From assembly GCA_018713285.1 (NCBI GenBank), contig DVFK01000080.1:1-58835 (forward strand): a DNA stretch of 58,835 bases, written 5' to 3'. The translations under genes were made by a program, and so were the position numbers. The notes under the pieces were generated by a model. That model saw nothing but the letters and a program-made list of their open reading frames with translations, had not been told where the DNA came from and did no database searches. The stretch is from Candidatus Faecousia excrementigallinarum (GTDB lineage: Bacteria > Bacillota > Clostridia > Oscillospirales > Oscillospiraceae). Numbering within the stretch: the first letter of the stretch is position 1; each line of letters begins with the position of its first letter. Below are positions 20,156 to 34,208 of this stretch, in pieces.

Positions 20156-23100
20156 TTAGTGGGTGTTGTGCTTGCGACGCTGGAGAACCAGCAGGATGGT
20201 CACAGCAGATGCAGACATAAACATCAGCAGCAGAACCGTGGCCAGGGCGAAGGTTTCGCCGGTCTGGTCGGGGCCGTCAGGATCGGTGGGCTCCTTGGTG
20301 TCCTCGGGCTTGGTGGTCTCCGTGGGGTTGGAGGGATCGGAAGGCTCGGAGGGCTCGGAGGGATCCGTGGGCTCAGAAGGATTGGAGGGATCGGTGGGCT
20401 GGGAAGGATCGGTAGGATCGGTGGGTTCGGAAGGATCGGTAGGATCAGTGGGATCAGTGGGGTCCACCGGGTCCGTGGTCTCTTCCGGTACCTGGAAGAT
20501 CTCCACCTCGTAAATGTCCGCAGCGCCGGTGATTTCCAGCCGGATGGTGTCAGCGGTGGTTTCGGAGAAGGAAATCAGGTTGAAGCCCTGGCTCAGCTCC
20601 GTAACCTCGGCCACCTGGTCATCCCCCAGGAACACTTTGACGCTCTCGGGCACCTGGTCCCCAATCCATACCTGCACGCCGGAGATTACTTCCCCGGATG
20701 CCAGCTGGAAGGTGACGGATTCGGTGCCGCCGGGTACCACCCAAGCCTTGCCGTCGTCCAGCTTGCCGTCTACCATGTTGTATACGGTGTCGGCGGTGGC
20801 GGTGAAGGTCTGGTAACGGCCGGGCTCACCCACGTGGCCCAGGCCGAAGCCTGCGGTGGGCAGGGGCTCCCAGCTAAAGTCCACGGTGGCCTTGTCCCCT
20901 CTGTCCTGGTCGGTGTGGACCTTCATCCAGCCGGTGCCCAGGTCTTCAATGTGTCCCGTCAGGTTGTCCGGGTTGGTGTCGTCCACCTTGCCGAAGAACT
21001 CGTCGGCTCCGGCGGAAATGCTGCTGCTGGTGGCCCAGCGGTAGTGGGCACCTGCCACCTGTCCGGGAACCTTATCCGGGTTCACGGTCTCCTGGGTGGC
21101 GCAGACGGCGTAACGCTTGCCGGCTTCCAGGACGAACCGTCCGCCATCGGCGGTATACATCTGGATTTCATAGGGGATACCGAAGCCGCCCTCGGTAATC
21201 TCCTCCTTGGTCAGGGTGCCGTAGGCCAGAGCCTTCCCCACGGGAGTGCTGCCGTCGGCGCTGACCTCGCTCAGGTATACCTTGAAGTCGTGGTAGTCCT
21301 GAGGCCAGCAGGACTGGTCGTTTACGTTGATCATCAGCTCCACAGACTCCAAAGTGGCATTGGCGTCGATGGTGGAAGAGATGACCGTGAGGTTCTTGCC
21401 CTCGAAGGTGGTTTCTGCTGCGTAGTTGCCGGTGTTCAGGGTGGCAAAGCCATACAGGGCTACGGCGCTGTTGCCGCTGTGCTGGAATACCACCCGGACA
21501 GCCTCGGCGTTCACCATGTCAAAGGCGATGGTGTTCTTGCCGCTGGTGATGTTCACCGCCCGGCGGACATTGGCGGCGTCCTTCCAGGTGCCGTCTTCCA
21601 GATACTGGACGGTGTAGTCCTGGGGAAGGGCCACGGCGGAGTTGCCGTTGAGGGAAGCCAGCAGGCTCAGCTCAATCCGGTTTACATAACGGCTTTCGGG
21701 GTACTGCACGCCGTAGTAGCTGGTGGTGCCGGTGGCAGATACCCAGTAGGCGTTGGGATTGATGGTCTCGCCCACAGGTGCGGAGGCGTTGGCTCCTTCT
21801 CCTGCTTCGCTGGAGACGGCGGTGCCGGTGGTGGACAGGTTGGGTCCGTAGACCGGAGCCACCTCGCCGGTGTAGACGGATTTCAGGCCGTCCACCCACA
21901 GGTAGGTGCCGTCGCCGCTGGTTTCGGCAATGATTTCAATGTAGTTGATGTTGGAAAGGTCCGGCTCACCGGTGCGGGTCATGGTCCAGTTGGCATCTCC
22001 GGCGTAGGGGATGTACATGGGAACCCACTCGGTACGCCACTGACCGGCCTTGATGTCCGCAAAGTTCAGGGGGGACAGGAAGGTGTCGTTGGCCTGGTAG
22101 GTGAAGTAGTTGTTCTCGTCGGTGTAGAGCTTCACGGTGGGGGAGTTGGCGGAGAACCAGTTCCGCTCGTCGTGAATCCGGGCGCTGAAGGCAAGGGCTG
22201 CATCCTGGCTGAAATCTGCACCCAAATCCTTGGTGGCGGGGTAGGTCAGGGAGTTGACGCCCTTGTGGGAGGTGACGGAAATGGAGTGGTCGCCGTCAAT
22301 GTTGTAGTAGGTCTTGAAGGTGGCCCATTCCTTTACCTCCGGGATGATGGCCTCCTGGACACCGCCCCGGTCGTCCTGGCCGCCGTTGACGCCGGAACCG
22401 AAAATCCAGTTCTCGGAGCTGTCCTCGGTGCCGATTTCCTCGCCCTCTGCCACCACATTGATGTTCACCCAGGCAATGTCGGACCACTCGCCATCGGTGA
22501 CGGTGAGGCCCACGTCATAGTAGCCGGGCTTTTCAAAGGAGAAGGTGACGGTCTCGGTGGTAAATACGGTGGCCTTGGAGCCAAAGTCGTCGCCCATGCT
22601 CCAGCGATAGGTGAGGTTGCCGCTGGCGGACTGGGAGTCCTTGGCGGAGAAGGTAATCTTCTCGCCCACCTGGAACTGGGTCTTGTCCACGGAAATCACA
22701 GCGGTGGGAGCGGTGGCTTCGTAGGTCTCCCGGTCGGCAATGTAGGTGCCCTCATGTTCGAACACATTGGTCACAGGATACTTGCCGTTGGGGTTGGCGT
22801 ATACGCCGTCAATCACGTTGCCCTCCAGCTTGTTGCCGGACAGGTCCACCCAGTCCACAGAGTCCAGATAGATGGCTGCGCCTTCACCTGCACCCTTGGC
22901 GGTGTTCTCGATGATGTTGTTCTGGATGAGGATGTGGCCTGCCACATACCCATCGGTGCGCTTGCTCACGTCGTAGCGGATGGCGATGCCGGAGCCGTTG
23001 TTGTTGTGGATGTGGTTGCCCACCAGCTCCACGTGCTCGGCGGTGCCGTTGAGGTACACGAGACCTCCGTTACCGGCACCCCGCTCGGCGGCGTTTGCCG

Positions 23101-25942
23101 GCATAATGCCGTTGTAAGCCACCTCGTTGTAGTAGAGGCTGGACTCATCGGTGCCGCCCATCCAGAAGCCGTAGCTGGAGTAGTTGGCCTTGTTGCCGAT
23201 GAAGTAGTTCCGTCCGGCCCAGCTCTCCACGGCGTTGTTGTTGGCAAAGGAGGTGTCGTTGTTTGCAAATACGTTGCCTTCGCAGGACCAGCCGTTGCCT
23301 ACCCGGATGAAAATGCCGTCGCCGCCGTGGGTGAAGTCATTGTCATAGAAGTAGTTGTAGTTGGAGCCTGCCTCCATCAGCTGGCTGGTGGAGTCCCGGG
23401 CGTGGACTTCGTCGTAGGCATCAATCCGGATGCCCCAGCTGAAATTGTTGCTGCGGATGTCGTTGTGGCTGGAATTCCACATCTCCAGACACACATCGGA
23501 GCAGACGGAGAAGTCGTTGTTTACAATGGTGTTGCCGTTGCTGTACTTGAGGTACAGGCCGTTGGCGTTGTTGTTGGCAATGTTGTTCCGGATGGTGGAG
23601 TTGTGAACGGATACCAGGGTCACAGCGCCGCCCAGCTGGTCACCCCAGCCGCCGTTGGGGTCGGTAAAGTTGTTGGACAGGTTGTTGTCCTCAATTACCA
23701 GACCGGAGGAGTTGGTGATATACATGGCATCGTGGAAGCCGCTGATGGTGAAGCCCTTGATGGTTACATTGGAAACACCGTCGGCCTGGATGCCCACGCC
23801 CTGGAACCGGGAAGTGGGGATGGCATAGGTGGTGCGGTCGAAGGGCTTGTTCTTCATGCCGTTTTCTACCCGGACGCCGTCGCCGTAGGACACATCCCAC
23901 CAGTAGTAGACCTTGGACTCTGCCAGGTCGCTGAAGGTCCGGACCCCGTCCTCAAAAAGCTCTATGGTGTCGATTTTCAGACCCAGGTCCCCAGGAACGG
24001 CACCGCCTGCCTCATAGGCAATGCGGATTTTCACGGTCTTGCCGGAATAGGCGGACAGGTCAGCGGTGAGGGTGCTCCACTCGCTGGTGACGTCGGTCTT
24101 GGAGGCCACCTGGGTGAAGTCCGTGCCGTTTTCAGATACGTACACCTTCATGGCGCCGGAGAAGTTGTCGGCCTTTACATCCAGGCTCAGGCGGATGGTG
24201 CCGGCGCTGCCCATATCCCAGGAGCGGGTCAGCATGTAAACCTGCTGGCCGTCTGCGGCGTTGAGCTGGTAGGCGTAAGCGCCGGTGGTCACGTTCTCAA
24301 GGAGGGTTTCCGGGGCGGCGTTCTGGATGACCACGCCGGTGCCGTCTACGGTGATGTTGCTGCCGGCAATGAGGATGCCTTCCTCGGCACCGCCAAAGTC
24401 ATAGACGCCGGGCTTGAACACCGTATCCTGGGTGATGACCATGCCGGGAACGGGGATGACCTTGCCGTCCTCGTCCAGGATGGACAGGCTGACGGTGCCG
24501 GTGGCGCTGCCGCAGGTGGCCTGAATCTGCACCACGCCGGGGCCCACTGCGGTGACGGTGCTGCCTTCCACGGTAGCCTTGGTCTCATCCAGAGAGGTAT
24601 AGGTGACGGTCTGACCCTCCATCACTTCCCCGTACTGGTCGGTGACCACGGCGGAGAGCTCTGTGGTGCCGCCGATTTCCAGCATGGAGGACTCTGCCTT
24701 TACGGTGATGGTGGTGGGTTCCGGCTCGGGAGGCAGAGCCTCGCCGTAGTTGACCTTCATCCGGCCGGTGCCCAGGTCTTCCACCACCCAGTTATTCTCG
24801 GTGATGTTGTTCACATCGGAGCCGTTGGCGGTCTTGCCGAACTGCTCCCCGGTCTCATCGGCAGCAGCCACGCTGCCGGTGGCCCAGCCATAGCAGTCAT
24901 AGCCGCCGTGGAGGGACAGGGGCGTTTCCATGGTCATGGCCACAGCGTACCGCACGCCTTCTTCCAGCTCGCAGGAGATGGGGACGTTGAAGGGCTCGTT
25001 GGAGGTGATGTTCTCCGCCGGGACGGTGGTCTGCACCAGGGGATCCCCGGTGGGCAGGCCTTCGTCGTTGGTGGCAAAGACTGCCACAATCAGGTCGTGA
25101 ATCTCCTCCAGGCCGCTTTCGCCGCTGTGGTCAAACTTGGCTACCCGCAGATCCAGGGAGCGGAGGTCTGCGGTCTGGTTGGAGGTGAAGGACTGCCAGC
25201 GCCATTCGTTGCCGGTGGCACCGAAGCCGAAGCCGTTGGCAGAGGTTTCAAAGGAGTAGTCGATGGTCATGGGGGCTCTCTGGTAGTACACCTTCATCCA
25301 GGCGGTGCCCAGGCCGCTTTCGTCTACCCAGTTGATGGGGTCTACGCCGCTGGTCTTGCCGAAAAATTCAGCCTCGTTCCGGGTGCCGCAGAACCAGTCG
25401 TAGCACTGGCCTTCGCCGGTGGTGTCGCCGCCGTTGCCGGTGACCTTGCTGGATTTGAGCACCACGGCATACTGCTTGCCGGCTTCCAGCTCATAGGTCA
25501 GCTCCAGGCGGGTAATCATGTCGTCGGTGACGGTCTGTCCGGCTACGGCGGTGTTCACCTGGTTGCCGGAGAGGGTGGTGCCTACCGCCAGAGGTTCGCC
25601 GGTGGGCATACCGTCTGCCACGGCGTAAAGTTCTGCGTGGAGGTCAATGAAGGCTTCCGTTACCGCATCCTTCTTCAGGAGCACCACTTCCACAGCCTCC
25701 ATGGTGCCGTCCTTGGTGGCGGTGAAGGTCTGCCAGCGGTACTCGTTGCCGGCCAGGGCGAAGCTGTAGCCCCAGTCCGCCAGCTGGTCAAAGGAATAGT
25801 CGATGACATTGGGGTCGTATCCTGCGGGGGGCGCATTTTGGGGGGAGGCATCGGTGCCCACGGCTGCCACGGAGGTCAGACCGCCGGATGCCAGACACAG
25901 CTCCAGCAGGATTGCCAGAAAGCGTGTAAATGCGTTTTTCAT
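20156..25942 (-). CDS. Very large secreted, probably surface-anchored protein: signal peptide, repeated N/C-terminal modules, Ig-like (Big_2), right-handed parallel beta-helix (NosD/PbH1), PKD, discoidin-like region, Pro/Ser/Thr/Asp-rich linker, C-terminal TM + RRK tail
   Basis: 1,928 aa from ATG 25942 (best-spaced RBS AAAGGA); beta-helix pattern NSTIRNNIANNNANGLYLKYSNGNTIVNNDF; PKD motif TYRWSMGDDFGSKATVF..YDVGLTVTDGEW; C-term PDQTGETFALATVLLLMFMSASAVTILLVLQRRKHNTH. Confidence 0.85.
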   Translation of the reverse strand: MKNAFTRFLAILLELCLASGGLTSVAAVGTDASPQNAPPAGYDPNVIDYSFDQLADWGYSFALAGNEYRWQTFTATKDGTMEAVEVVLLKKDAVTEAFIDLHAELYAVADGMPTGEPLAVGTTLSGNQVNTAVAGQTVTDDMITRLELTYELEAGKQYAVVLKSSKVTGNGGDTTGEGQCYDWFCGTRNEAEFFGKTSGVDPINWVDESGLGTAWMKVYYQRAPMTIDYSFETSANGFGFGATGNEWRWQSFTSNQTADLRSLDLRVAKFDHSGESGLEEIHDLIVAVFATNDEGLPTGDPLVQTTVPAENITSNEPFNVPISCELEEGVRYAVAMTMETPLSLHGGYDCYGWATGSVAAADETGEQFGKTANGSDVNNITENNWVVEDLGTGRMKVNYGEALPPEPEPTTITVKAESSMLEIGGTTELSAVVTDQYGEVMEGQTVTYTSLDETKATVEGSTVTAVGPGVVQIQATCGSATGTVSLSILDEDGKVIPVPGMVITQDTVFKPGVYDFGGAEEGILIAGSNITVDGTGVVIQNAAPETLLENVTTGAYAYQLNAADGQQVYMLTRSWDMGSAGTIRLSLDVKADNFSGAMKVYVSENGTDFTQVASKTDVTSEWSTLTADLSAYSGKTVKIRIAYEAGGAVPGDLGLKIDTIELFEDGVRTFSDLAESKVYYWWDVSYGDGVRVENGMKNKPFDRTTYAIPTSRFQGVGIQADGVSNVTIKGFTISGFHDAMYITNSSGLVIEDNNLSNNFTDPNGGWGDQLGGAVTLVSVHNSTIRNNIANNNANGLYLKYSNGNTIVNNDFSVCSDVCLEMWNSSHNDIRSNNFSWGIRIDAYDEVHARDSTSQLMEAGSNYNYFYDNDFTHGGDGIFIRVGNGWSCEGNVFANNDTSFANNNAVESWAGRNYFIGNKANYSSYGFWMGGTDESSLYYNEVAYNGIMPANAAERGAGNGGLVYLNGTAEHVELVGNHIHNNNGSGIAIRYDVSKRTDGYVAGHILIQNNIIENTAKGAGEGAAIYLDSVDWVDLSGNKLEGNVIDGVYANPNGKYPVTNVFEHEGTYIADRETYEATAPTAVISVDKTQFQVGEKITFSAKDSQSASGNLTYRWSMGDDFGSKATVFTTETVTFSFEKPGYYDVGLTVTDGEWSDIAWVNINVVAEGEEIGTEDSSENWIFGSGVNGGQDDRGGVQEAIIPEVKEWATFKTYYNIDGDHSISVTSHKGVNSLTYPATKDLGADFSQDAALAFSARIHDERNWFSANSPTVKLYTDENNYFTYQANDTFLSPLNFADIKAGQWRTEWVPMYIPYAGDANWTMTRTGEPDLSNINYIEIIAETSGDGTYLWVDGLKSVYTGEVAPVYGPNLSTTGTAVSSEAGEGANASAPVGETINPNAYWVSATGTTSYYGVQYPESRYVNRIELSLLASLNGNSAVALPQDYTVQYLEDGTWKDAANVRRAVNITSGKNTIAFDMVNAEAVRVVFQHSGNSAVALYGFATLNTGNYAAETTFEGKNLTVISSTIDANATLESVELMINVNDQSCWPQDYHDFKVYLSEVSADGSTPVGKALAYGTLTKEEITEGGFGIPYEIQMYTADGGRFVLEAGKRYAVCATQETVNPDKVPGQVAGAHYRWATSSSISAGADEFFGKVDDTNPDNLTGHIEDLGTGWMKVHTDQDRGDKATVDFSWEPLPTAGFGLGHVGEPGRYQTFTATADTVYNMVDGKLDDGKAWVVPGGTESVTFQLASGEVISGVQVWIGDQVPESVKVFLGDDQVAEVTELSQGFNLISFSETTADTIRLEITGAADIYEVEIFQVPEETTDPVDPTDPTDPTDPSEPTDPTDPSQPTDPSNPSEPTDPSEPSEPSDPSNPTETTKPEDTKEPTDPDGPDQTGETFALATVLLLMFMSASAVTILLVLQRRKHNTH

Positions 25943-26010
25943 AGCCATGTCCTTTCTTGTGTTTTGTTTCGTTCCGCAGCCAAACAGATAGAAACAATGG
26001 TTTTTCTTTG

Positions 26011-26028
26011 TGATAAAACGGTTTATCA
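26011..26028. promoter_or_regulatory. LacI-type operator upstream of the beta-helix gene
   Basis: TGATAAAACGGTTTATCA, near-perfect palindrome centred on CG. Confidence 0.8.
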
Positions 26029-26098
26029 TTCGGGAATAAGAAAAGCAAAGCGTAAATACACAGCTAAGACCATGGATGCGCTTTGTTTCTTTAAGGAA

Positions 26099-27082: not shown

Positions 27083-28285
27083 TCAAGGATTCTCCCGGCT
27101 TAAGAATTTTCCGTAGGTCAGCTCCATTCCCAGGCTTCCCAGAGGGGTGGTAATGAGGATGGCCAGCACCGCTGTGGAGAGAATCAGCTGTCCGCAGGGC
27201 AGACCCATCGCCAGGGGCACGGAGCCGATGGCTGCCTGCACCGTGGCCTTGGGGCAGTAGGCGATGATGCAGAACAGCCGCTCCTTAGCCGTAAGCCCGG
27301 TGCCCAGCAGGCACAGCCACACCCCCACGCCCCGGAACACCAGCGCCAGGGCAATCATGGCAATGGCCAGAGGCCCGGCGGTGAGGGTATAGGAAATATC
27401 CACCGCTGCGCCCACCAGGACGAACAGCAGCACCTCCGCTCCCAGCCAGAGCTTCCCGAATTTCTCCGACAGCCGTTTACTCACCGCAGCCACGGACTTG
27501 ATTTTGATGGTACAGGCCATGCTCATCACTGCCAGAAGGCCGGACACCGCCACGGTGCCTTTTGCCCATTCCTCCACCGCCATGAGAAGGAAGGACACCC
27601 CCAGCACCACAATCACCTTCATGCTGTTGCGCACCGGCTGACGGTGTGCCCAGGCCCTTTCAAAAAACCAGGAAAGCCCCAGTCCCACCACTGCGCCCAG
27701 GGCGATGCCCAGGACAATGGAGATGGGGATGTTGAGAAAATCCCCCATATGGACGCTGCCGCCCTGGACCATGGACAAAAAGGTGGTAAAGAGGACAATG
27801 ACGAAAATATCGTCGCAGGAAGCCCCCGCCAGAATCATCTGGGGGATACGCTTCCCGGTGCCGTAGCCCCCTTCCATCAGCTGCACCATTTTGGGCACCA
27901 CCACCGCCGGGGACACCGCCCCCAGCACCGCCCCCATGAGGGCTGCCTCCATCCGGTTCACTCCCAGAAGCCAGGGGGCAAAGAGGGTAAAGGCCAGAAT
28001 CTCACAGCTGGCAGGCACAAAGGACAAAAGCACCGCAGGCCGCCCCACCTGCTTCAAGTCCCGCAGGTTCAGGGAGAGTCCCGCTTTCAGCAAAATGATA
28101 ATGAGGGCCATCTGCCGAAGCTGGGCGGAAATGGACAAAATGGAGGGGTCCAGCAAATCCAGCACATAGGGCCCCAGCACCACGCCGGTAAAGCGCATCC
28201 CCACAATCCGGGGCAGCCGCAGCTTCCGGCAAATCCCGCCCAGGGACAGCCCCACCAGGAAAATATAGCCCAAAGATGTTAACAT
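27083..28285 (-). CDS. Cation:proton antiporter (CPA family)
   Basis: 400 aa from ATG 28285 (RBS CAGGAGG); polytopic, GLSLNLRDLKQVG, GAVLGAVSPAVVVPKM, ASCDDIFVIVLF. Confidence 0.85.
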   Translation of the reverse strand: MLTSLGYIFLVGLSLGGICRKLRLPRIVGMRFTGVVLGPYVLDLLDPSILSISAQLRQMALIIILLKAGLSLNLRDLKQVGRPAVLLSFVPASCEILAFTLFAPWLLGVNRMEAALMGAVLGAVSPAVVVPKMVQLMEGGYGTGKRIPQMILAGASCDDIFVIVLFTTFLSMVQGGSVHMGDFLNIPISIVLGIALGAVVGLGLSWFFERAWAHRQPVRNSMKVIVVLGVSFLLMAVEEWAKGTVAVSGLLAVMSMACTIKIKSVAAVSKRLSEKFGKLWLGAEVLLFVLVGAAVDISYTLTAGPLAIAMIALALVFRGVGVWLCLLGTGLTAKERLFCIIAYCPKATVQAAIGSVPLAMGLPCGQLILSTAVLAILITTPLGSLGMELTYGKFLSRENP

Positions 28286-28321
28286 AAAAAATACCTCCTG
28301 TTTCTCTTTTCTCCCCCGAAA

Positions 28322-28412
28322 AACAAAAAAATGACCTCTGCACAAGTGCAGAAGTCATTAGCGTTTCAGGCGGTTCCGGCATGGCCGAGGGAGAACTTCA
28401 TTCCCAAACATA
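28322..28412 (-). promoter_or_regulatory. Fluoride (crcB-type) riboswitch aptamer with overlapping intrinsic terminator
   Basis: Minus strand GGGAAUGAAGUUCUCCC ... GAACCGC..GCUAAUGACUUCUGC; loop GAAGU can pair with ACUUC (pseudoknot), and ACUUC is also part of the terminator stem AAUGACUUCUGCAC/GUGCAGAGGUCAUU followed by UUUUUUG. Confidence 0.8.
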
Positions 28413-28420
28413 TTGGGGCT

Positions 28421-28449
28421 ATTCTACCAGCTTTCCTCATAAATGTCAA
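28421..28449 (-). promoter_or_regulatory. SigA promoter of the antiporter/riboswitch transcript
   Basis: Minus strand TTGACA-N17-TAGAAT; predicted start is just upstream of the aptamer. Confidence 0.8.
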
Positions 28450-28495: not shown

Positions 28496-28524
28496 TTGAC
28501 ACAGATGGCAGTTTTTGCTATAAT
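28496..28524 (+). promoter_or_regulatory. SigA consensus promoter of the lic-like operon
   Basis: TTGACA-N17-TATAAT with TGC extension, 46 bp before the first ATG. Confidence 0.85.
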
Positions 28525-28569
28525 TGACAAAATTCTAATGGAAACACCCATACTTTTTGGAGGGATACC

Positions 28570-29439
28570 ATGGCAAAGGTTGACAACGCAGTGATGATTG
28601 TGGCCGGGACTTCCAGCCGCTTTGCCCCTCTGTCTTACGAGCACCCCAAGGGGCTGACCCGGGTGCGGGGAGAGGTTCTCATTGAACGGCAGATTTCCCA
28701 GCTCCGGGCGGCAGGCATCCGGGACATTTACCTGGTGGTGGGATACATGGGGGACCGGTTCTCCTACTTACAAAAGAAGTTCGGGGTGCATATTCTGGAA
28801 AATTCCCAGTATGCCCATCGGAACAACCACGGAAGCATCTATGCCGCCCGGGAGGTGCTGGGCAATTCCTACGTGTGCTGCGGGGACAATTATTTTGCCA
28901 GCAATCCTTTTGAACCGGAGGTGGCGGAGAGCTACTACGCCACGGTGTTCGCCCAGGGGCCGACCCAGGAGTGGTGCGTCTACACGGACAAAGAGGATGT
29001 GATTAACCGGGTGGAAATCGGGGGGAGGGATGCCTGGTATATGCTGGGACATACCTACTGGGATAGGGACTTCTCCCGGACGTTTCTGGATATTCTGGAA
29101 AGGGTCTATGACCTGCCGGAAACCAGGGACAAGCTGTGGGAAGGGATTTATGCCGACCATCTGGATAAGCTTTCCATGAAGCGCCGGTGCTACCCGGATG
29201 GGACGATTTTTGAATTTGACACCCTGGACGAGCTGCGGGAGTTTGACCCCTCCTACTGGGAGGACAGCCGCTCTGTTATCTTAAAGGATGCGGCGGCCCA
29301 GCTGGGCTGCCAGGAGAGAGAACTCACCCGGCTTCGGGCTCTGCGGGGCAGCACCAATGCGGCGGAGGGCTTTTCCTTCTGCTGGCAGGGTAAGCACTAC
29401 TACTACAACTATCAGGAAAGAATTGTGAGGGAAGGGTAA
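28570..29439 (+). CDS. LicC-like nucleotidyltransferase (phosphocholine cytidylyltransferase type)
   Basis: 289 aa; MIVAGTSSRFAPLSYEHPKGLTRVRGEVLIERQISQLRAAGIRDIYLVVGYMGD. Confidence 0.75.
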   Translation: MAKVDNAVMIVAGTSSRFAPLSYEHPKGLTRVRGEVLIERQISQLRAAGIRDIYLVVGYMGDRFSYLQKKFGVHILENSQYAHRNNHGSIYAAREVLGNSYVCCGDNYFASNPFEPEVAESYYATVFAQGPTQEWCVYTDKEDVINRVEIGGRDAWYMLGHTYWDRDFSRTFLDILERVYDLPETRDKLWEGIYADHLDKLSMKRRCYPDGTIFEFDTLDELREFDPSYWEDSRSVILKDAAAQLGCQERELTRLRALRGSTNAAEGFSFCWQGKHYYYNYQERIVREG

Positions 29440-30347
29440 TGGCAAGACAGATTGAGACCCGGGACATCCCCCGGATTCGGGAGCTTTTGCAAAGGGTTTT
29501 GGGGGCGGAGGACTATGCCCGGCTGGAACGTCTGGGAGGACTGACCAACCGCACCTACAAGACCGTGCTGGAAAACGGCGAAATCTATGTGGTGCGGATT
29601 CCCGGGGAGGGAACCGGGGACATGATTTGCCGGGCCGATGAGAAAATCAGCACCACCCTGGCCTGCTCCCTGGGGGTGGACGCTCCACTACTGTACTTTG
29701 GAGACGGGGGTGAGAAGGTCAGCCGGTACATTCCCAAAGCCCAGACTTTGTGCGCCGCCGCCCTGCAAGAGCCGGAGCGGATTGCCCAGGCGGCAGAGCT
29801 TCTTCGCCGGGTACATACCTGCGGCAAAGACACCGGGGTGCCCTTCCAGGTGTTCTCCATGGCAGAATCCTATGAGGGGATTATCAAGAATAAGGGCGTG
29901 CCTATGTACGCCGATTACCCAGAGATTAAGGAAGCGGTGGCGAAAATCCGGAAAAGTCTGCCGGAGCCCTCCCTGGTCCCTTGCCACAACGACCCCCTGT
30001 GTGAAAACTGGGTACAGGGGGCGGACAAGCTGTACCTGCTGGACTGGGAATACGCTGGAATGAATGACCCCATGTGGGATCTGGCGGATGTGTCCATCGA
30101 GGCTGGCTACACCCAGGAGCAGGACAACCGGCTGCTGGAAAGTTATCTCCAGCGGAAGCCCACCGGGGAGGAACAGCGGCGGTTTTTAGCCAACAAGATT
30201 TATGTTGACTATCTGTGGACCCTGTGGGCCAAGACCCGGGTCCCCTATGACGGACAGCCCATGGAGGACTGGGCGGCGGAGCGGTATACCCGGCTGAAGG
30301 GCTTTTTGGCGGAATTCGGGAGGCTGGAAGCGGCGGTATGCAGGTAA
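29439..30347 (+). CDS. Choline/ethanolamine kinase-like phosphotransferase (LicA-like)
   Basis: 302 aa; GLTNRTYKTVLENGEIYVVRIPGEGT, LVPCHNDPLCENWV, YLLDWEYAGMNDPMWDLADVSIEAG. Confidence 0.8.
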   Translation: MARQIETRDIPRIRELLQRVLGAEDYARLERLGGLTNRTYKTVLENGEIYVVRIPGEGTGDMICRADEKISTTLACSLGVDAPLLYFGDGGEKVSRYIPKAQTLCAAALQEPERIAQAAELLRRVHTCGKDTGVPFQVFSMAESYEGIIKNKGVPMYADYPEIKEAVAKIRKSLPEPSLVPCHNDPLCENWVQGADKLYLLDWEYAGMNDPMWDLADVSIEAGYTQEQDNRLLESYLQRKPTGEEQRRFLANKIYVDYLWTLWAKTRVPYDGQPMEDWAAERYTRLKGFLAEFGRLEAAVCR

Positions 30348-31580: not shown

Positions 31581-34208
31581 ATGTCTTTCTTATCCATTCT
31601 GGAAACCATTCTGATTGGGCCGCTGAAACTGGTATTTGAAATGGTCTTTACCCTTTCCTATCAGCTTACCGGCAATCCCGGCCTCTCCATTGTGTTTTTG
31701 AGCCTGGTGATGAACATTCTGGTGCTGCCCCTTTACAAGCGGGCGGACGCCATGCAGGAGCGGGCTCGGGATGTGGAGGCAAAGCTCTCTGCCGGGGTGG
31801 GACACATCCGCAAGACCTTCACCGGGGACGAGCGGATGATGATTCTTCAGACCTACTACCGCCAGAACCACTACAAGCCTACAGATGCCATGAAAGGCTC
31901 TGTGTCTTTGCTTCTGGAGATTCCCTTCTTCATGGCGGCCTATCAGTTTCTGTCCCACCTTTCCATCATGGAGGGGACGCCTCTTGGCCCCATTGAAAAC
32001 CTGGGCGTGCCCGATACCCTTCTCACCATCGGGGGACTGAGCATCCATGTGCTGCCCTTTGTGATGACCGGTATCAACATCTTGTCCAGCGTTTTGTACC
32101 TGAAAGGTTTTCCCTTGAAGAGCAAAATCCAGGTGTACGCCATGGCGGCGTTCTTTCTGGTATTTCTGTATAACTCTCCTGCCTGTCTGGTGTTCTACTG
32201 GACGCTCAACAACGTCTTTTCTCTGGGGAAGAACATCTGCTACCGGATTTTCCGGGGAAGAAAGCCTGCCCCGGCCAAGAAAGTCCGGGCGAAAAAGGAA
32301 TGGCAGCCGGACAAAAAGACCTTCTACACCGGCTGCGTGTTTCTCACGGTGCTTATCGGTGTGCTGATTCCCTCTGCCTACTTAGCCGCCTCTCCCCAGG
32401 AGTATGTGGACCTTACCCACTTTGTCCATCCTTTGTGGTTCCTGGTGGCTTCTGCCGCCATGGCAACAGGTACTTTTCTTCTGTGGCTGCCGGTGTTCTA
32501 CGGCCTGGCAAAGCCCGGGGGAAAGGTATTCCTGGAGCGGAGCCTCTTTGCCCTGGGTGGGGTGATGCTGGCTACCTACCTGTTCTTCGGCAGCAAGCTG
32601 GGGGTCATCTCCTCGGATTTGCAGTACGAAACCGGCCTGTGGTTCCCCTATGCCGAGCAGTGGGGAAACATCGCCCTGTGGGTGGTGCTGGGGGGAGTCC
32701 TCTTTTTCCTGGCAGCCAAATTCCGGAAAATGCCTGCCCTGGTGCTTTTGGTGGCAGCCCTCAGCCTGGGGTGCATGGCAGGCGTTAACACCCTGCAGGT
32801 GTACCGGTCGGTCAAGTCCCTGGAAGCGACCCCTGCCCAGGACCGGCAGTTCCGGATTCCTCTGAGCAAAGAGGGAAAGAACGTGGTGGTCATCATGCTG
32901 GACCGGGCCCTGGGAGAGTATGTCCCCTTTATGGTGGCGGAGAAGCCGGAGCTCGTAGCCCTGTTTGACGGCTTTACCTACTACGGCAACAGCGTCTCCT
33001 TCGGCGGCCACACCAATTTCGCCAGCCCCGCCCTGCTGGGGGGCTATGAGTACACCCCGGTGGAGCTGAACCGCCGGGAGGACAAGACCATGGTGGAAAA
33101 GCACAACGAGGCTTTGAAGCTTATGCCCACCCTCTTTTCCCAGGCGGGCTACCAGGTGACGGTGGCCAATCCCCCCTATGCCAACTACCAGTGGGTGCCG
33201 GATTTGAGTATTTTTCAGGACATCCCCAACTGCAACGCCTACATCGCCCAGTGGAAGCCCGGACAGCGGGAGAAGTACAGCGGCACCCAGGAGCGGAATC
33301 TGCGGAATTTCTTCTGCTTCTCCCTGATGAAAACCCTGCCTCTGCCTGCCCAGTTCCTGGTGTATGACGGGGGTCAGTACCTCCGTGCCCCCGGCGGGGA
33401 CAAGAAGGAATACGGCAATCAGAGCCTTTGGAGCAATACCAGCGCTTCCGGCTACCGCCGGGGCTTTATGATGCACTATCAGGTGCTGGAGGGTCTGCCG
33501 GAGGTGACCCAAATCCGGGAGGGAGAGGAAAATACCTTCCTGTTTCTGGGGAACGACACCACCCATGAGCCCATGATGCTCCAGCTTCCCGGTTATGTGC
33601 CCCAGGAGGAAGTGGACAACTCCGCCTTCGGGGATCTGCTCCAGAACCGCCGGGATGAGGCTGGGCGGGTGCTGAAAATGAACAATGTGAGCCAGATTAT
33701 CCACTATCAGTCCAACATGGCGGCACTGCTCAAAATCGGTGCCTGGCTGGACTACCTCCGGGCGGAGGGGGTGTATGACAACACCCGGATTATTCTGGTA
33801 TCCGACCACGGCTCAGAGCAGTGGCAGATGGATGCCCTGGCCACCCAGGGCAACGGGAAGCTCCAGGATTTGGAGCGGTTTGTGCCCCTTCTGATGGTGA
33901 AGGACTTTGGGGCCCAGGGCTTTACCCAGTCCCAGGACTTTATGACCAACGCCGATGTGCCTTTCCTGGCTTTTCAGGGACTGGTGAAGAATCCTGTAAA
34001 TCCCTTTACGGGAAATCCCGTCACCACGGAGGAAAAATCTGCCCACAAGCAGTATATCCCCCTGTCCTTCCAGTGGCAGCTGAGTAACCAACTGGAAAAC
34101 AGCTTCGCCCCCTCTCAGTGGGTGGCGGTGCAGGACAATATCTGGGATATGGACAACTGGGAATTTTTCCCGGAGGAAACGGTACTAAGAAGCCACAGCG
34201 CCCCCTAA
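31581..34208 (+). CDS. Fusion of YidC/Oxa1-like insertase domain with a C-terminal sulfatase/alkaline-phosphatase-superfamily (phosphoglycerol-transferase-like) domain
   Basis: 875 aa; N-term YidC-like (GPLKLVFEMVFTLSYQLTGNPGLSIVFLSLVMNILVLPLYKRADAMQ..DAMKGSVSLLLEIPFFMAAYQFLSHL), middle TM segments, C-term KNVVVIMLDRALGEYVPFM..GGHTNFASPALLGGYEYTPVEL..IILVSDHGSEQWQ. Confidence 0.85.
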   Translation: MSFLSILETILIGPLKLVFEMVFTLSYQLTGNPGLSIVFLSLVMNILVLPLYKRADAMQERARDVEAKLSAGVGHIRKTFTGDERMMILQTYYRQNHYKPTDAMKGSVSLLLEIPFFMAAYQFLSHLSIMEGTPLGPIENLGVPDTLLTIGGLSIHVLPFVMTGINILSSVLYLKGFPLKSKIQVYAMAAFFLVFLYNSPACLVFYWTLNNVFSLGKNICYRIFRGRKPAPAKKVRAKKEWQPDKKTFYTGCVFLTVLIGVLIPSAYLAASPQEYVDLTHFVHPLWFLVASAAMATGTFLLWLPVFYGLAKPGGKVFLERSLFALGGVMLATYLFFGSKLGVISSDLQYETGLWFPYAEQWGNIALWVVLGGVLFFLAAKFRKMPALVLLVAALSLGCMAGVNTLQVYRSVKSLEATPAQDRQFRIPLSKEGKNVVVIMLDRALGEYVPFMVAEKPELVALFDGFTYYGNSVSFGGHTNFASPALLGGYEYTPVELNRREDKTMVEKHNEALKLMPTLFSQAGYQVTVANPPYANYQWVPDLSIFQDIPNCNAYIAQWKPGQREKYSGTQERNLRNFFCFSLMKTLPLPAQFLVYDGGQYLRAPGGDKKEYGNQSLWSNTSASGYRRGFMMHYQVLEGLPEVTQIREGEENTFLFLGNDTTHEPMMLQLPGYVPQEEVDNSAFGDLLQNRRDEAGRVLKMNNVSQIIHYQSNMAALLKIGAWLDYLRAEGVYDNTRIILVSDHGSEQWQMDALATQGNGKLQDLERFVPLLMVKDFGAQGFTQSQDFMTNADVPFLAFQGLVKNPVNPFTGNPVTTEEKSAHKQYIPLSFQWQLSNQLENSFAPSQWVAVQDNIWDMDNWEFFPEETVLRSHSAP

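Follow-up and report, generated by a model that had tools for sequence, protein, structure and literature searches.

Weinberg et al. described the crcB motif together with overlapping terminators and with genes for K+ or Cl- transport (PMC2864571). After exporters, Na+/H+ antiporters are the next commonest class of genes associated with fluoride riboswitches (PMC11139923), and their linkage to these RNAs is reported by Baker et al. 2012, as cited in the same article. In C. difficile, a single fluoride riboswitch is located ahead of a CLC gene and an NhaP-type antiporter gene (PMC11477304). A 2026 study in which 1901 natural fluoride riboswitches were tested presents an aptamer-terminator model with the same exchange between pseudoknot and terminator that is proposed below (PMC13273304). 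Because this published work covers both, the kind of riboswitch described here and its antiporter target are already known. What is new is that the antiporter and the Fluc exporter never occur in the same genome in a class sample of 291 genomes.

The locus lies in a window of 58,835 nucleotides (positions 1 to 58,835 of contig DVFK01000080.1) from Candidatus Faecousia excrementigallinarum. The switch resembles the transcriptional RF01734 switch of B. cereus crcB in its aptamer folds, in a pseudoknot topped by a U.G pair and in a terminator that shares a pseudoknot strand. It differs in carrying an extra covarying hairpin, which is common in its clade, in having a second helix of only 2 bp and in its predicted control of an antiporter rather than crcB. 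Like previously reported fluoride-riboswitch-linked Na+/H+ antiporters, a CPA-type antiporter gene is placed under a fluoride riboswitch. Unlike the CD0656-7 locus of C. difficile (PMC11477304), however, there is a single gene with no CLC partner, in a genome without detected Fluc or CLC. The encoded protein shares with NHA2/SLC9B2 (PDB 7b4l, 7p1i) and NapA (4czb) the PF00999 fold as judged by sequence, the DD motif and conserved Arg and Lys residues, and differs from them in being a bacterial protein, predicted to be fluoride-regulated, that is known from sequence alone.

A predicted fluoride riboswitch upstream of an antiporter gene

The first-pass annotation of this DNA had proposed a fluoride riboswitch and had named a search with the Rfam model RF01734 as the check. 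In a cmscan of the window this covariance model gives a significant match over its full length (1-64) at 36.9 bits (E 1.3e-6), only 3 bits above the gathering score of 34, and RF01734 is the sole Rfam family above threshold in the whole window. The 1.98-Mb genome contains no second RF01734 match above the cut-off; the next best reaches 16.6 bits, and these weaker matches were discarded as chance-level. Judged by its sequence, the element is a real fluoride-sensing riboswitch and an ordinary member of a well-known class.

The features that the first-pass annotation had read from the minus strand are in place (Table 1), including the promoter, GGGA-AUGAAGUUC-UCCC and GAACCGC...GCUAAUGACUUCUGC. 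From 5′ to 3′, the leader presents the promoter, the first hairpin with the pseudoknot loop, the extra hairpin, an ACCGC strand, a two-pair helix and CUAAUGACUUCUGC, with the terminator followed by AGGAGG and then by the ATG at 28285. The proposed complementarity between the loop bases GAAGU and ACUUC was borne out, and the pairs are kept in relatives. ACUUC also forms the 5′ arm of the terminator, as expected for the ON-switch layout that had been suggested, and has two possible partners, the aptamer loop GAAGU or the terminator 3′ arm. The 13-bp terminator stem (28359-28330), followed by a T-run, thus overlaps the pseudoknot strand that is stabilized by ligand.

None of 200 shuffled sequences folds as well as this terminator stem. 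In an RNA energy model run without the pseudoknot, the aptamer shows no special stability. Two long-range pairs have been reported in the fluoride aptamer, A6/U38 and A40/U48 (T. petrophila numbering, PMC11586693), and the alignment contains all four of these bases. The sixth and topmost pair of the pseudoknot is a U.G wobble, as it is in 68 of 72 parsed antiporter leaders, and a wobble at this position was found to be critical for switching at 37 °C (PMC11077080).

Table 1. Positions of the leader elements and the antiporter gene in the window.
Feature	Position	Strand	Details
Sigma-70-type promoter TTGACA-N17-TAGAAT	28421..28449	-	11/12 consensus matches, TG ahead of second hexamer
Fluoride riboswitch aptamer (RF01734)	28342..28414	-	cmscan 36.9 bits
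Aptamer hairpin P1, GGGA-AUGAAGUUC-UCCC	28389..28405	-	pairing in 94% of cells across 27 relatives
Pseudoknot 5′ strand GAAGU(U), within P1 hairpin	28399-28394	-	
Extra hairpin CGGC-CAU-GCCG, separating the aptamer helices	28377..28387	-	all 4 pairs with two-sided changes in 27 relatives
Second aptamer helix (P3 in Rfam naming), GC/GC only	28361..28371	-	mostly 3-5 bp in relatives
Pseudoknot 3′ strand (G)ACUUC, common to terminator 5′ arm; top pair U.G wobble	28351..28356	-	
Predicted intrinsic terminator with 13-bp stem and U-run, in overlap with the aptamer	28323..28359 (stem 28359-28330)	-	-18 kcal/mol, z = -6.0
Ribosome-binding site AGGAGG	28294..28299	-	8 bases ahead of ATG at 28285, read directly
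Predicted NHA/CPA2-type cation/proton antiporter, 400 aa; D158-D159, R318, K346	27083..28285	-	PF00999 E 4e-45

This arrangement suggests how the switch may operate. Without fluoride, the nascent leader would fold the 13-bp terminator, and RNA polymerase would halt ahead of the antiporter gene. With fluoride, a Mg2+-fluoride complex would lock the pseudoknot GAAGU(U)/(G)ACUUC, thereby sequestering the terminator 5′ arm, so that transcription would continue into the antiporter gene. Entry of HF would carry protons as well as fluoride into the cell, and the antiporter may offset this entry by swapping a monovalent cation and protons. The family of the RNA, its architecture, the family of the gene and the conserved linkage of the two (see below) are shown here. 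On this basis we read the locus as a standard transcriptional fluoride ON switch that controls an NHA-type antiporter and would respond to fluoride in this organism, and we give this reading a probability of about 0.93.

Identity of the antiporter and conservation of its riboswitch

The downstream gene had been called a CPA cation/proton antiporter, and its product indeed matches PF00999 at 154.7 bits (cut-off 26.2). This is the sole Pfam match, with no PF02537 or PF00654 domain such as those of Fluc and CLC. Consistent with an NHA/CPA2-like protein, the closest solved relatives are mammalian NHA2/SLC9B2 (E 2e-37) and then NapA (E 1.5e-5). Residues D158-D159 align with the ion-binding aspartates (DD) of NHA2, and among 80 aligned sequences D158, R318 and K346 are invariant while D159 is kept in 79. 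The antiporter and its relatives keep the DD, Arg and Lys residues of cation/proton exchangers, which favors cation transport, and the protein is predicted to perform cation/proton exchange, for which we infer both the transported ion and the direction. Stoichiometry is not readable from the DD motif because NHA2 is electroneutral despite having it (PMC8850199).

Conservation of the pairing was assessed with 80 related antiporter loci from named genomes, of which 71 have an RF01734-type switch directly upstream on the same strand. This agrees with the earlier assignment of the antiporter as the gene under control. An Rfam rescan of the other nine loci gave no fluoride switch, and one of these (L053) starts at a contig end 33 bases ahead of the gene. 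Judged from record titles, the hosts include Oscillospiraceae, Lachnospiraceae, Erysipelotrichaceae, Faecalibacterium, Blautia and Anaerococcus. The antiporter is patchy inside the window's own genus, where it is found in 3 of 61 genomes. In the class sample the antiporter is the commonest fluoride-riboswitch target, with 39 of 66 riboswitches located at it and 9 at Fluc. The present riboswitch is ordinary, yet it anchors the question of what makes Na+/H+ antiporters such frequent targets of fluoride switches.

The antiporter and Fluc occur in different genomes

The part of the finding most worth following is the mutual exclusion of the antiporter and Fluc. In the class sample of 291 genomes, where the antiporter was called at E <= 1e-60 and Fluc above its cut-off, the antiporter is present in 47 genomes and Fluc in 52. 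Not one of the 47 antiporter genomes carries Fluc, which is found in 52 of the 244 others, and the absence of genomes with both compares with an expectation of 8.4 (hypergeometric 3.8e-5, a value that ignores phylogeny). In a family sample the antiporter occurs in 21 genomes, Fluc in 20 and both in none, although this is not significant alone (p 0.10). A pure lineage effect is argued against because both kinds of genome occur inside several bacterial families (for example f5, f11, f15, f21, f25, f36 and f44).

Neither Fluc nor any CLC was found in the organism's own genome, which is 88% complete, or in 20 more of the 47 antiporter genomes (21/47 in all), and as these are drafts some absent genes may merely be missing from the assembly. 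Ten of the 21 antiporter genomes without CLC reach a completeness of 97% or more, and each of these has the riboswitch on the antiporter. Because the antiporter never occurs with Fluc and 21 genomes lack both Fluc and CLC, the correlation suggests that in such genomes it may serve as the principal defence induced by fluoride. Those without a known exporter, the present one included, are places to examine antiporter-only fluoride defence.

A bolder interpretation is that a widespread Clostridia clade of riboswitch-controlled NHA-type antiporters replaces Fluc as the main fluoride-resistance transporter and alone gives resistance, either by moving fluoride or because cation/proton exchange suffices. 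We regard this as a rather doubtful proposition. The distribution of Fluc in both samples and the ten near-complete genomes speak for it, as do the motifs of CLC proteins: in antiporter genomes, those whose motif is clear have GREGP or GREGA, with one GVEGP, and none has the GREGT/V motif of three riboswitch-linked CLCs. However, CLC genes are not depleted in antiporter genomes (26/47, versus 8/33 controls), and GREGA-type proteins could carry fluoride. Moreover, the statistical association takes no account of phylogeny and is not significant in the family sample alone, coexistence of exporter and antiporter is possible, as in C. difficile, where both are under one fluoride riboswitch (PMC11477304), and the conserved DD, Arg and Lys residues point to cation transport. 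If replacement of Fluc were true, it would imply either an unrecognised fluoride transport activity or that proton/cation balance alone is enough for resistance.

Among the CLC proteins examined is a class in which GREGA takes the place of GREGP or GREGT/V (L146-L156, L174-L187). Its members are frequent in antiporter genomes and are nearer to riboswitch-linked CLCs than to canonical CLCs.

Structural variation of the aptamer

Covariation was assessed with 27 fluoride aptamers from the same bacterial family, in which the structure as a whole covaries more strongly than any shuffle or slid control. Across these 27 aptamers the five pairs of the pseudoknot are formed in 100% of cells, and some of the pairs have changed on both sides. 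The first-pass annotation had correctly recognized the extra CGGC-CAU-GCCG hairpin but took it as the possible mark of an atypical variant, and this second part does not hold, since the hairpin covaries among the 27 aptamers and is common among relatives. Of 72 parsed leaders from related antiporter genes, 71 have a corresponding segment that can pair over at least 3 bp, although covariation is the better evidence because short stems easily form by chance. By these sequence comparisons the extra hairpin is normal for the clade and present in most relatives.

The remark that the second helix is unusually short was accurate. A 2-bp helix is found in 2 of 71 parsed relatives, the present sequence included, and the two pairs of P3 retained here are the invariant ones. 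The sequence also has A instead of G in GCUGAUG, as do 4 of 73 relatives. Both deviations are rare, and the covariance score is second-lowest among the above-cut-off matches of the family sample, as might be expected if the RNA were a degenerate or relaxed copy whose fluoride response had been lost through the short helix and the G-to-A change. We consider such a loss improbable, given that the pseudoknot pairs, the long-range partner bases and the terminator overlap are all intact, and that each deviation occurs singly in other relatives. The well-studied B. cereus switch likewise has A at this position. That the RF01734 match is a chance hit on what is merely an attenuator or terminator, of the sort commonly held by intergenic regions, is already refuted because 71 of 80 relatives of the gene retain the element upstream, and its E value of 1.3e-6 speaks against this as well.

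Neighboring genes and other loci

A YesL/DUF624 gene begins about 80 bases after the antiporter gene and had been offered as a possible second target of the predicted ON switch. It has a promoter-like sequence of its own (TTGACA-N17-TATGAT at 27086-27058), and no YesL/DUF624 relative is located near the antiporter in the 80 related loci. Shared regulation was rejected on these two grounds, and a fluoride role for this gene is unsupported. A terminator scan revealed none between the two genes, so that some co-transcription by read-through could still occur.

Other fluoride-riboswitch targets in the family sample, as judged by eye from translations, are MutS-like (L035) and CrcB-like (L009, L033), with one of a type that is not evident (L034).

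Several other features of the window were also recorded. Divergent from the riboswitch promoter, a perfect TTGACA-N17-TATAAT promoter (region 28496-30347, plus strand) precedes a nucleotidyltransferase gene and a choline-kinase-like gene that form a LicC/LicA-like pair. On the minus strand, 20156-26029 encodes a predicted surface protein of 1957 aa that contains repeat-like regions and has a tail rich in DPTDPT as well as a C-terminal membrane anchor; the 1996-codon open frame antisense to it is probably a codon-bias artefact. Finally, 31581-34208 (plus strand) encodes an 875-aa protein with an unusual domain combination, wherein a YidC/Oxa1-type insertase domain (PF02096) is joined to a weak sulfatase domain (PF00884). 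Its gene adjoins a CDP-glycerol glycerophosphotransferase-like gene, and the protein perhaps participates in the synthesis of a teichoic-acid-like polymer.
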